NCBI RefSeq assembly: GCF_009796285.1
Contig: NZ_CP047020.1
Span: forward strand, 5,084,001-5,148,000
Reading direction: 5' to 3'
Length of the DNA: 64,000 nucleotides
Source of the DNA: Streptomyces broussonetiae
Lineage (GTDB): Bacteria > Actinomycetota > Actinomycetes > Streptomycetales > Streptomycetaceae
Shown here: positions 47,531 to 50,610 of the stretch, one piece after another
How positions within the stretch are numbered: the stretch's first letter is position 1
Layout of the letters: each line of letters starts with the position of its first letter
Translations under genes and position numbers: made by a program
Notes under the pieces: generated by a model
Database searches by the model: none
Told to the model about the DNA's origin: nothing
The model's input: the letters and a program-made list of their open reading frames with translations, nothing else

Positions 47531-47690
47531 ACCGCAGCTTCCTGCAGAGGAGAGAGGCGGAGCCTGGGTCATACCCGGGCATAACAGGCCTGCGCGGCCG
47601 CTCCATTGGAGCGAGCCGTGTTGCGGACCCGGTCGGCGCCGCGCATAGTTGCGCTGCGGAAGTGGCAGCACACCGGGGGTGAAATGGGCG

Positions 47691-48734
47691 ATGGCCGGGC
47701 GCGGGGCGGAGGAGCATCCACACGGGGCCGACCGACTGTGCGCGGCCGGAGACCGGCTGTACTCCCGGGCCGTACGCCGCGGGCGGGTACCGCGCGCCGA
47801 CATCGAGACGGTGCCCTGCCTGCTGGAGCTGGCCCTGCTGCACCCGGATCCCGACGACATGGACTGGCTGGTGCCGACCTCCCCGCAGGAGGTCATGACT
47901 CGGCTGCTGCGCGGGGTCTGCGACGAGGTCAGCGCGAGCCAGCGGAGGATGGGCTCGGCGGTGGCCGCCTTCGAGTGGTATGCCGGTCTCGGCCGGCAGC
48001 TGCCCGCGCTGACGGCACCGGCCGAGGGCAGCGCCATCCGGGTGCTGGACGGGCTGTCACGGATCCAGGCGGCCATGGACGAGGCGACGGAGGCGTGCAC
48101 CACCGAGGTGCTCACCGTGCAGCCCGGCGGCATCCGCCGGGAGGCCGAGCTGACCGAGGGCCTGCACCGGGCGCTGGCCCTGCGCGGCCGGGGCGTGCGC
48201 ATGCGCGACCTGTACACCCATGTCGCCCGCCACGGCCAGGGCCTGCTCAACTACCTGGAGCTGATGGGCGACACGGTCGAGGCCCGCAGCCTGGACGAGG
48301 TCATCGACCGGCTGATCCTCTTCGACCGCACGGTGGCGTTCGTCCCCGCCAACCCCGACTGCACGATGGCCCTGGAACTGCGCCATCCGGCCCTCGTGGC
48401 CTACCTGGTGACGGTCTTCGAGCGCCTCTGGCGCCTCGCGATCCCGCTCACCGCGCCCCTGCCCGACACCGGCATCGAGGGCATCTCGCACCGTGAGCAG
48501 TCCATCGCCGCGCTGCTCGCCGAGGGCCACCAGGACGCAGTGATCGCCGAGCGGCTCGGGATCAGCGTGCGCACCTGCCGCGCCCACATCGCCCGCCTGT
48601 CGGAGACCCTCGGCGCGGCCAGCCGTACCCAACTGGGTGTCCGTATCGCCCAGGTGGGCCTGGACGGCAACCGCTCCTGTCTGACGGCCGCCCCGGTCAC
48701 GGCCGCTGACCAGGAATCCCCGAGCGTGCGATGA
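47691..48734 (+). CDS. LuxR-type orphan regulator with TrmB-like sensory part, copy 1
   Basis: 347 residues from ATG 47691 (GGGGGTGA upstream). The N-terminal 270 residues lack a receiver domain; they contain 'LLHPDPDDMDWLVP', 'TEACTTEVLTVQPGG', 'GRGVRMRDLYTH' and 'VAFVPANPDCTMALELRHPALVAYLVTVFERLW', the TrmB-like effector module of large Streptomyces orphan regulators. The C-terminus is a LuxR-type HTH, 'EQSIAALLAEGHQDAVIAERLGISVRTCRAHIARLSETLGAASRTQLGV'. A close paralogue is the next gene on the other strand. The two and the small peptide gene beyond may form one regulatory unit. Confidence 0.82.
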   Translation: MAGRGAEEHPHGADRLCAAGDRLYSRAVRRGRVPRADIETVPCLLELALLHPDPDDMDWLVPTSPQEVMTRLLRGVCDEVSASQRRMGSAVAAFEWYAGLGRQLPALTAPAEGSAIRVLDGLSRIQAAMDEATEACTTEVLTVQPGGIRREAELTEGLHRALALRGRGVRMRDLYTHVARHGQGLLNYLELMGDTVEARSLDEVIDRLILFDRTVAFVPANPDCTMALELRHPALVAYLVTVFERLWRLAIPLTAPLPDTGIEGISHREQSIAALLAEGHQDAVIAERLGISVRTCRAHIARLSETLGAASRTQLGVRIAQVGLDGNRSCLTAAPVTAADQESPSVR

Positions 48735-48860: not shown

Positions 48861-49823
48861 TCACCGGTCCCGGTCGAGCATGCCGGACTGGGCGATGAGG
48901 TACCCGAGCTGGGCGCGGCTGCCGCTGCCGAGGGCCTGGGCGAGCTTGGCGATGTGGGCCCGGCAGGTGCGCACGTTCATGCCCAGACGGCGCGCTATGG
49001 CCTCGTCGACATGGCCCTCCACCAGGAGTTTGGCGATGGAGTGCTGGATGTCCGTGATGCCGTCGGGGGCTGTCTCGTAGGGGGCGCCGGTGCTCATCGG
49101 CACCGCGCGCGCCCACATGAACTCGAACACCTTGATCAGGTACTGCACCAGGCCCGGGTGCCTGAGTTCCAGGGCGACCTGCCGGTCGTCGCGGATCGGG
49201 ATGAAGGCCACGGTCTCGTCGCAGATGATCAGCCGCTCCACCAGCTCGTCGATGGTGCGGTACTCCACCTTGCCCTCGGAGAACTGGGACACGTATCCGA
49301 GCGTCTCGGGGCTGTAGCGGGCCGTGTGCTGGTAGAGGGTCCTGATCCGCACACCGCGTTCGAGGAGCGGGCGGTCGCGTTCCAGGCCCTGCAGCAGGGT
49401 GTGTTCGAGGCGGCGGCTGGTCGGCTGCACGGTGAGCACCTCGGAGCGGCACTCGGCCGTGGCCACGTCGAGTGCCGCGTTGATGCGGTCCAGGCCTTCC
49501 AGTACCGAGATGGCGTGCGTGGGCGTCGAGCTCTGGGCGCTGAGCGTCATGAACGGTTCGAAGGCGTCGGCGAGTTCGATCGACAGCCGTCTGCGCTCGG
49601 AGATCTCGCGTTCGAGCGGGTTGAGGCGCTGGGCCAGGGCCACCGTGGGAGGGGTGGGACGCAGCCAGTTCGCGTCGTCGGGGTCCGGGTGCAGAAGGGC
49701 GAACTCCATGAGGCAGGGAGCGGGTTCGACATCCGCGCGGGCTATGCGTCCGGTCCGTAGCGCCTTCGCGTAGAGGCGGCCACCTTCCTCACACAGCTCG
49801 GTCATCGTATGGGGATGTGACAC
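48861..49823 (-). CDS. LuxR-type orphan regulator with TrmB-like sensory part, copy 2
   Basis: About 320 residues. GTG 49823 ('VSHPHTMTELCEEGG') aligns best with the paralogue; ATG 49871 and ATG 49805 are alternatives without ribosome sites. Shared blocks with copy 1 include 'APCLMEFALLHPDPDDANWL', 'TAECRSEVLTVQP', 'RGVRIRTLYQHTARY', 'VALELRHPGLVQYLIKVFEFMWARAVP' and the HTH 'QHSIAKLLVEGHVDEAIARRLGMNVRTCRAHIAKLAQALGS'. It is divergent from the DTTWG peptide gene, and their 134-base shared gap contains paired direct repeats, so it is the prime candidate to control that gene. The ligand is unknown. Confidence 0.84.
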   Translation of the reverse strand: MSHPHTMTELCEEGGRLYAKALRTGRIARADVEPAPCLMEFALLHPDPDDANWLRPTPPTVALAQRLNPLEREISERRRLSIELADAFEPFMTLSAQSSTPTHAISVLEGLDRINAALDVATAECRSEVLTVQPTSRRLEHTLLQGLERDRPLLERGVRIRTLYQHTARYSPETLGYVSQFSEGKVEYRTIDELVERLIICDETVAFIPIRDDRQVALELRHPGLVQYLIKVFEFMWARAVPMSTGAPYETAPDGITDIQHSIAKLLVEGHVDEAIARRLGMNVRTCRAHIAKLAQALGSGSRAQLGYLIAQSGMLDRDR

Positions 49824-49865
49824 TTTGGTCCGATTCGATGTCAAATCTCCACCCCCCAGGGTCCT

Positions 49866-49913
49866 GAACATGCAGGAACATGATGCACCGATTGTGTGGC
49901 CATGACGTGGCCA
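49866..49913. promoter_or_regulatory. two helically phased direct-repeat pairs between regulator and peptide gene
   Basis: GAACATG occurs at 49866-49872 and 49876-49882 (10-bp period). GTGGCCA occurs at 49896-49902 and 49907-49913 (11-bp period). Repeats one helical turn apart allow a protein dimer or tandem dimers to bind the same face of DNA. They lie in the divergent promoter gap of the LuxR-like regulator and the secreted peptide gene. Confidence 0.5.
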
Positions 49914-49957
49914 AATAAGCCATCGTCTTGTTCGACGGGGGAAGAGGGGACCTTCAA

Positions 49958-50182
49958 GTGAGGACGAAGCCGACTATGTGCAACAGAATGCTTCGGTCGA
50001 TGCTTGCCGTCGCCTTCTCCACCGTTGTGGCCATCGGCGCGTTGAGTGGCCTCTTCGGTGCGAGGGGTGACGCTCAGGCGCAGGACACCACCTGGGGAGT
50101 GGCTCCTCGGTCTGTCGCTGTGAGTGCCGACGGCACCGGATCGGCCCATTCCGATGGTGCAGACGACACCACCTGGGGCTGA
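49958..50182 (+). CDS. small secreted peptide with DTTWG at both ends of the predicted mature form
   Basis: 74 residues from GTG 49958, preceded by GAGGGGA seven bases upstream. Residues 11-41 are a Sec signal ('MLRSMLAVAFSTVVAIGALSG') ending in 'DAQA', so cleavage after Ala41 is likely. The remaining 33 residues begin 'QDTTWG' (42-47) and end 'DDTTWG' (69-74); the segment between is Gly/Ser/Ala/Val-rich without Cys. The exact placing of the motif at both termini suggests processing or recognition at each end. It is followed after three bases by a Rieske-like gene and is divergent from a LuxR-like regulator. I know no family name; a signal peptide or modified-peptide precursor is a plausible but unproven reading. 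Confidence 0.75.
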   Translation: MRTKPTMCNRMLRSMLAVAFSTVVAIGALSGLFGARGDAQAQDTTWGVAPRSVAVSADGTGSAHSDGADDTTWG

Positions 50183-50185
50183 CTG

Positions 50186-50521
50186 ATGACTACTCCACCC
50201 GACGACCGTTCCTTCCGGCGCGAGATGGCCACCGCCTACCGCTCCGGCTGGCACTTCATCGACCTGGTCACGGCCATCCCGCACAGCGGGGATTCGCTGA
50301 TGGTGACCGTCTTCGGTGAACCGGTCGTCGTGACACGGGACGAGGACGGGGACGTGCGGGCGTACCGGTGCCTGCGCAAGCCGCGTGGCGCGCCCCAGCC
50401 GGTGCGCTGTGCCATCCGGTACGGAATGATCTTCGTGAACCTGGACCAGCGGGATCACCGGCTTGCCGAGCCGACGGATTCCGACCTGCGAACCATCTCG
50501 GCCACCCCCCGCAGTGCCTGA
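50186..50521 (+). CDS. Rieske-oxygenase-like protein lacking the usual cluster ligands
   Basis: 111 residues, starting three bases after the DTTWG peptide stop, so translation is likely coupled. 'ATAYRSGWHFIDLVTAIPHSGDSLMVTVFGEPVVVTRDEDGDVRAYRCLRKPRG' follows the N-terminal Rieske domain of ring-hydroxylating oxygenases, where 'RCLRKPRG' takes the place of the CxH block. The second CxxH block is replaced by 'RCAIRYGMIFVNLDQ', which in oxygenases comes after it. Only two Cys and no ligand His remain, so a 2Fe-2S cluster is unlikely. It may be a degenerate domain used to bind the peptide or a precursor. It ends at a strong terminator. Confidence 0.65.
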   Translation: MTTPPDDRSFRREMATAYRSGWHFIDLVTAIPHSGDSLMVTVFGEPVVVTRDEDGDVRAYRCLRKPRGAPQPVRCAIRYGMIFVNLDQRDHRLAEPTDSDLRTISATPRSA

Positions 50522-50565
50522 CGCGATTCCCCCGTCGTAAAAGATCGCTCAGGTGCTTCCCCCCG

Positions 50566-50610
50566 CAGCGGCGTCACCGTGACCTGAACACGGTGACGCC
50601 GCTGTAGTTT
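50566..50610 (+). terminator. strong terminator of the peptide-Rieske-like operon
   Basis: CAGCGGCGTCACCGTG (50566-50581) and CACGGTGACGCCGCTG (50589-50604) form a 16-bp perfect stem with a 7-base loop, followed by TAGTTTTT. Confidence 0.92.

Follow-up and report, generated by a model that had tools for sequence, protein, structure and literature searches.

A short gene of Streptomyces broussonetiae encodes a predicted secreted peptide that carries the same five residues, DTTWG, twice. What is such a peptide for, and which protein recognizes it? We analysed the stretch of 64,000 nucleotides in which the gene lies (the window; coordinates are positions in it) and compared the locus among related genomes. 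The features are as follows.

49958..50182, + strand: PEP, a 74-residue precursor with two DTTWG units (open reading frame; family comparison)
49958..50080, + strand: leader of PEP (residues 1-41), conserved in the alignment and, by inspection, similar to a signal peptide
50084..50098, + strand: DTTWG unit 1 of PEP (translation of the open reading frame)
50165..50179, + strand: DTTWG unit 2, at the exact C-terminus of PEP (translation of the open reading frame)
48861..49871, - strand: REG, divergent regulator with a TrmB-like PLD-fold domain and a LuxR-type HTH, the proposed receptor; start codon uncertain
49389..49457, - strand: REG residues 139-161, proposed specificity segment; the codon for residue 145 is 49437-49439
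50186..50521, + strand: RIE, a 111-residue Rieske-like protein without the ligand histidines, adjoining PEP
49842..49932, no strand: REG-PEP intergenic block, strongly conserved, reaching into the annotated start of REG; candidate shared promoter/operator
49862..49877, no strand: inverted repeat TCCTG-aacatg-CAGGA, noticed by eye, with arms of 5 bases; it spans the annotated start of REG
50565..50605, + strand: terminator-like hairpin with a T tail, 3' of RIE
47649..48734, + strand: REG2, a paralogue of REG (50% identical), used as a negative control; no demonstrated membership in the system

The peptide gene and its neighbours

A preliminary description, made from the DNA of the window alone, had taken PEP to be a real gene whose predicted mature product has DTTWG at both ends and no Cys. 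Each of these points was borne out. The start codon is a GTG with a purine-rich ribosome site upstream. A longer form that begins with TTG is also among the listed open reading frames; we take the GTG as the start because homologues begin there. By inspection, the leader begins with basic residues, continues into a hydrophobic core and closes with an A-x-A-like sequence, and a predicted cut after ..GDAQA would leave a 33-residue product, QDTTWG...DDTTWG. The calculated monoisotopic masses are 3274.44 for this product, 521.21 for DTTW and 578.23 for DTTWG. The sole Cys, C8, is in the leader and there is none past the predicted cleavage site. RIE begins three bases past the stop codon of PEP and is followed by a strong terminator-like hairpin. 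The family is conserved, and its repeat pattern is far beyond chance (see below). PEP matched no Pfam family at E up to 1, and against NCBIfam it gave an insignificant match alone (E 0.055).

The order of the three genes is fixed. REG and RIE flank the precursor gene in all 152 precursor loci that we recovered, with REG divergent. The start of RIE is at most 9 bases from the final precursor codon in 152 of these 152 loci, and the match to REG lies 84-101 bases from the precursor. The block between REG and PEP is strongly conserved across 140 unique sequences, and the inverted repeat in it, seen by eye, is a candidate operator. The conserved N-terminus annotated for REG, MFRTLGGGDL, is encoded within this block (49842-49871 of the window). 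In two loci (L030 and L303), the frame that is open with the rest of REG begins downstream of it. It may be that this stretch is untranslated and that the DNA itself is what is conserved.

REG and RIE are the only fixed neighbours, and the module lacks a gene for a protease or an importer. In the window, the locus sits between genes that we take to be dnaJ- and hspR-like on one side and clpB-like on the other. We also scanned about 1.5 kb on each side of the 15 other REG-like matches in the same genome (L159-L173). This crude scan, which would miss more divergent or distant genes, found a few small open reading frames with a hydrophobic stretch and none with a W repeat. One of these remote matches (L165), at about 1-435 of the window (genome 5083821-5084435, + strand), has one in-frame TGA in the matched stretch and may be the remnant of a regulator or an artefact of the reading frame.

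RIE is highly conserved. In an independent search it was found in 326 of 392 genomes of the genus, some of the matches being weak. It was also found in 186 of 245 genomes of the order, all in one of the 8 genera sampled; some of these 186 matches were also weak, and on repetition of the search five looked false, with 32-36% identity within frames about 450-590 residues long. Among 80 named records with RIE, 78 were Streptomyces, one was 'Actinobacteria bacterium' and one was Kitasatospora aureofaciens. The ligands of a Rieske [2Fe-2S] cluster are in the motif CxH...CxxH. RIE has CLR/CLRK...CAIR at the expected place, with Arg at the positions of the His ligands, and in one locus (L302) Cys62 is changed to Ala. 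We considered RIE as a working Rieske protein and rejected this, based on the missing ligand histidines and the loss of Cys62. A structural model of RIE was weak (pLDDT 63.5), and its top Foldseek matches were mostly Rieske-type oxygenases (best E 0.026, none reaching 0.001). In two genomes, RIE was found at one place in two overlapping pieces (L306 and L313 in G489; L307 and L314 in G546), possibly frameshifted copies.

A repeated word that differs between species

A precursor profile matched 296 of 392 Streptomyces genomes (profile search, E up to 0.01; a few matches were weak). In a homologue search of 61 relatives, 26 genomes had matches; on inspection, 24 of these proved to be real, all of them from this genus. 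No real homologue was found in the 24 genomes of other genera among the 61. Three matching loci (L025, L026 and L027) were rejected as not homologous. A pattern based on the leader recovered precursors in 152 of 157 loci, missing L017, L025, L026, L027 and L061, and the 152 include 145 non-redundant loci. The precursor in L017, read by hand, has the imperfect words DVVWD and DRAWD. The preliminary description had held that a lack of doubled-motif homologues in related genomes would count against its reading; such homologues are common.

Behind the conserved leader, the mature part of the precursor contains 1-15 copies of a short word, nearly always [D/N/E]-x-x-W. Of the 360 W residues past residue 28 in the 145 non-redundant loci, 356 are preceded by D, N or E at a distance of three residues. 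The word varies between species and is constant inside one precursor. Of 108 precursors with at least two xxxW words, 103 had a single word type. When words were redistributed among precursors in 2000 rounds, the mean number was 5.8 and the maximum was 14. The other five precursors each had one stray or variant word. Words that we saw include DTTW, DSTW, DSSW, DTSW, NSSW, DSHW, DTRW, DLGW and EISW, with EPTW, DPVW and DFGW on deeper branches; the word of the window is DTTW(G). The full set of modules holds 42 distinct words plus DITW, after two wrong-frame words were removed from 44. The repeat seen in the window is real, and its DTTWG is not a fixed motif: it is a species-specific word within a general xxxW repeat. 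Most words of the family would escape the search pattern D[ST]TWG that had been proposed for finding relatives.

Number and spacing of the words vary. There is a single word in 37 of the 145 loci, so copy number is not essential, and the highest number is 15 (L361). The first word begins at residue 42, beside the predicted cleavage site, in 93 of the 145 loci, and the last word is at the C-terminus in 58. The spacers that separate the words are not conserved. The precursor in L361, a near-perfect tandem of 15 DTGWT units, suggests a recent repeat expansion and a route by which all copies could change jointly. Two precursors each have two slightly different words (DSTWS and DSVWS in L210; NTSWP and DTSWP in L223) and are possible snapshots of a word in change. 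In two others, the first residue of the word is not acidic (FTEWP in L185; ITEWP in L203), and both are beside a REG with Leu145. The precursor in L302, beside the RIE that lacks Cys62, has seven EPTWE units and a different leader.

One residue of REG follows the second letter of the word

To find columns of REG and RIE that change together with the letters of the word, we compared the branches of a tree on which each of them changes. REG residue 145 and position 2 of the word came first, with 22 changes in common where 3.0 would be expected (z 12.4). Seven entries followed with z of 3.4-5.6, all within REG residues 141-159. No column of RIE was above z 2.6 in this test.

The pairing is simple. 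In the first set of 145 loci, Met145 was found with Ser in 87 of 87 cases, and Val145 with Thr, Leu, Ile or Val in 56 of 56; there was one Leu-Thr pair and one alignment gap. A further named set of 80 loci, two of which yielded no precursor (L190 and L220), had not been used for finding the rule. The Met and Val pairings held in all 53 further precursors whose words start with an acidic residue, although these come from named genomes of related species and so depend on phylogeny; L185 and L203 were left out. Two more classes, both of which fit a size code, came from deeper loci: Ala145 occurs there with Leu or Phe, and Leu145 with Pro or Thr. Counted over 291 modules, which are not independent because the species are related, the totals were: Met-Ser 143 of 143; Val-Thr 81, Val-Ile 17, Val-Leu 15 and Val-Val 5 (118 of 118); Ala-Leu 4 and Ala-Phe 3 (7 of 7); and Leu-Pro 19, Leu-Thr 3 and Leu-Ile 1. 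One locus without a word (L316) was dropped from this count, and five (L289, L338, L030, L303 and L331) were read by hand, L303 and L331 as additions to the other 289. L289 is a soft exception, with Leu145 next to four copies of DITWE and one of DPTWE.

The association does not depend on the specificity segment having shaped the tree. On a tree built without REG residues 136-164, 29 of 36 changes at residue 145 shared a branch with one of 42 changes at word position 2, compared to 4.3 expected by chance and a maximum of 13 in 5000 rounds. This test was run before the hand corrections, and one of the 29 shared changes is a gap artefact. The remaining seven changes were on branches without a change at position 2.

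REG2 served as a control. In 72 named loci, the best column of REG2 (one of the 72 rows is a fragment) had a z of only 3.2, whereas that for REG145 was 9.8. The segment of REG2 that matches the specificity segment of REG was nearly constant in these loci.

Other residues of REG follow other letters of the word. Ser158 goes with Pro after the W (55 of 60) and Arg158 with Ser or Asp there (64 of 65). Met or Val at residue 154 accompanies Asn at word position 1 (15 of 15), and weaker matches were also found at residue 152. The pairings of 154 and 158 overlap the phylogeny more. Besides 145, only 154 and 158 recurred in the top eight of both trees that we compared. On a tree dominated by RIE, two REG columns outside the segment, 230 and 190, had z of 8.3 and 7.7, and one RIE column had 4.7; in the 72-locus analysis, REG columns 18, 190 and 31 outranked 154. 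The pair of residue 145 and word position 2 was the only one that led every analysis, and apart from residue 145 the map of the pocket is approximate.

A predicted structure places these residues in a domain that could bind a ligand. The AlphaFold model of REG (60 sequences; pLDDT 77, pTM 0.51) resembles the archaeal regulators TrmBL2 and TrmB, domain by domain, over residues ~22-260 (Foldseek E ~6e-13 for TrmBL2), with an rmsd of 9-19 A over the whole length. Residues ~118-260 resemble the sugar-binding domain of TrmB and other PLD folds (rmsd near 3; for 2f5t_X, Z 14.2 and rmsd 2.8 over 129 residues). Residues ~269-333 match LuxR/GerE HTH domains (Z ~11) and also gave a profile match to such chains; the Pfam GerE match (E 0.0023) is below the GerE cut-off. 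By inspection, the model has no predicted membrane segment. Among Pfam matches at E up to 1 there was no TPR family and no autoinducer-binding domain, and the region concerned resembles PLD folds. Residue 145 is on the strand 144-149, and residues 152-158 are in the next loop and helix. In the model, a ligand pocket would lie around residues 145 and 152-158, and the covariation points to a peptide as the ligand. The word is matched residue by residue, and a single residue in a single protein leads the match; the best explanation is that REG contacts the word directly. Recognition of the word by REG is strongly supported by these comparisons.

A proposed peptide signal and its reader

What, then, does the peptide do? 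Comparison shows that the unit is repeated, that it is the same throughout a precursor, that the gene order is fixed and that REG matches the word residue by residue. The presence of a leader and of several copies suggests a pheromone that is exported, processed and returned to the cytoplasm. Taking these together, we think it likely that PEP gives rise to a short peptide pheromone and that REG is the receptor that reads it directly. The precursor would be exported by the Sec route and cut to free one or more units of about 4-5 residues (DTTW or DTTWG here). A unit would then return into the cell, probably via an oligopeptide permease, and bind the PLD-fold pocket of REG, formed by the strand 144-149, the loop that follows and the helix 156-165. 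Binding would alter the action of the LuxR-type HTH at the shared promoter of PEP and REG and at other targets, including those for antibiotic production. RIE would be produced along with the peptide, in an accessory role. Joint change of receptor and unit would give rise to the different words of different species groups. Neither the ends of the mature form nor position 5 of the word is certain. The preliminary description had suggested a processed or modified peptide or an autoinducer; a processed peptide, probably an autoinducer, is what we favor, now tied to the divergent LuxR/TrmB-like regulator. The 33-residue product that it predicted is less likely to be the active species than a unit of about 4-5 residues.

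It is also possible, but in our view unlikely, that the producing cell is itself where REG binds the word, still as part of the precursor, either ahead of export or when export fails; REG would then read the precursor level or secretion stress and not cell density. This would account for the covariation equally well. It would fit with a receptor without a membrane segment, with a module that has no importer and with flanking genes that are presumably heat-shock genes (dnaJ-, hspR- and clpB-like). However, a sensor in the cytoplasm would need neither up to 15 copies of a word nor words that differ between species, and species-specific words are typical of signals that are distinguished outside the cell.

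Much less probable is that the words are the cores of a RiPP, with the W modified and REG acting as a pathway regulator that recognizes the product. Precursors with several cores and a conserved leader are common in RiPPs, and RIE resembles the start of Rieske oxygenases. However, the fixed neighbours include no known modification enzyme, RIE has Arg in place of the ligand histidines and has lost Cys62 in one locus, and no column of RIE tracks the words as REG145 does. That PEP is a structural or adhesive secreted repeat protein, associated with REG only by shared ancestry at the locus, would fit the variable repeat number and the unconserved spacers but is the least probable of these readings, as RIE and REG2 are inherited at the same locus without covariation like that of REG145, and the covariation persists on the tree without the segment.

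The pheromone and receptor that we favor would work like the RRNPP(A) systems of Bacillota, which use an exported peptide and a cytoplasmic receptor and include the tandem-repeat propeptides of Rap-Phr (PMC11343458, PMC9765709, PMC10075063). In both, a small exported propeptide (here predicted), with several copies of the pheromone, is encoded next to a cytoplasmic receptor (here a proposed one). PEP-REG is nonetheless not a member of RRNPP: receptors of that group are TPR proteins, whereas in REG a LuxR-type HTH is joined to a TrmB-like PLD fold, and PEP, from Streptomyces and not Bacillota, has an xxxW unit in up to 15 copies. REG shares with TrmB and TrmBL2 (PDB 2f5t, 3qph, 5box, 5bpd) the fold of each domain over residues ~22-260, including the ligand-binding domain. 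Two things set REG apart from TrmB, whose domain is sugar-binding according to the title of 2f5t: an extra LuxR/GerE HTH at the C-terminus, and a peptide partner with which REG covaries. The arrangement of the domains of REG is also unmatched. It resembles LuxR-type regulators in the C-terminal GerE HTH and differs from them in its PLD-like ligand domain. Precursors of the yeast alpha-factor type also hold repeated pheromone copies in one secreted protein, but these are eukaryotic and their receptor is in the membrane. In searches of the open-licence papers of PubMed Central other than preprints, we found no report of PEP, or of REG as a peptide receptor. The receptor class and the signal family would be unrelated to those of RRNPP, in a known kind of job.

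A peptide signal has been described in Streptomyces coelicolor. Nodwell and Losick reportedly identified, in 1998, a 655-Da peptide that is imported by BldK. That BldK imports an extracellular peptide signal of 655 Da is stated in two other papers (PMC9640686, PMC11303876), and the unit of PEP would likewise be a small extracellular peptide taken up by an oligopeptide permease. We found an exact 31-base stretch of S. coelicolor bldKB in one of 392 genomes (G270), a probable close relative. The unmodified words of that genome would have masses of 533.25 (DTIW), 620.28 (DTIWS) and 707.31 (SDTIWS), none of which is 655 for these cut sites.

The same genome suggests a link between the locus and antibiotic control. 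Its genes run from REG2 through a third regulator (327 residues), REG (with Val145), PEP (with one DTIWS) and RIE to clpB. The third regulator (L385, 856-1839, - strand) is of the TrmB/LuxR type, is 48% identical to REG and overlaps the end of REG; there is no room for it at this place in the window. In S. coelicolor, clpB is given as SCO3661 (PMC2687793), and SCO3665 (327 residues) and SCO3666 (394) are given as LuxR-family genes (PMC3282765). Based on the gene order and on these labels and lengths, we infer that SCO3664 is the REG of S. coelicolor, an orthologue by position and count. Insertions in SCO3664, labelled 'regulator', are listed among those that raised actinorhodin more than 50-fold, and complementation is given as restoring 12 of 16 mutants, SCO3664 possibly among them (PMC6585502). 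If the system works as we propose, it would give a testable reason for the strong rise in actinorhodin from these insertions.

Our results point to peptide signals that form one family and differ from species to species, in the main bacterial producers of antibiotics. Gamma-butyrolactones are given as the Streptomyces signal (PMC13220807), and signals of Actinomycetota are described as typically small molecules made by enzymes (PMC10075063). If our reading is correct, a phylum known for enzyme-made signals would also have a cytosolic receptor for peptide pheromones, of a fold undescribed for that job in the literature that we searched. On balance, we lean toward the broader notion that most Streptomyces use a gene-encoded language with over 40 words, each of four letters and with Trp as the last. 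Each word would be read in the cell by a hybrid of TrmB fold and LuxR-type HTH through the simple size code of residue 145 set out above, and would help to set the timing of antibiotic production. A genus-wide, species-specific peptide code for which a receptor and its main specificity residue can be named would be directly testable with cheap synthetic peptides of 4-5 residues. If true, it may offer a handle by which species of choice could be switched in their production of antibiotics, and it would supply peptide sensors in a matched set.
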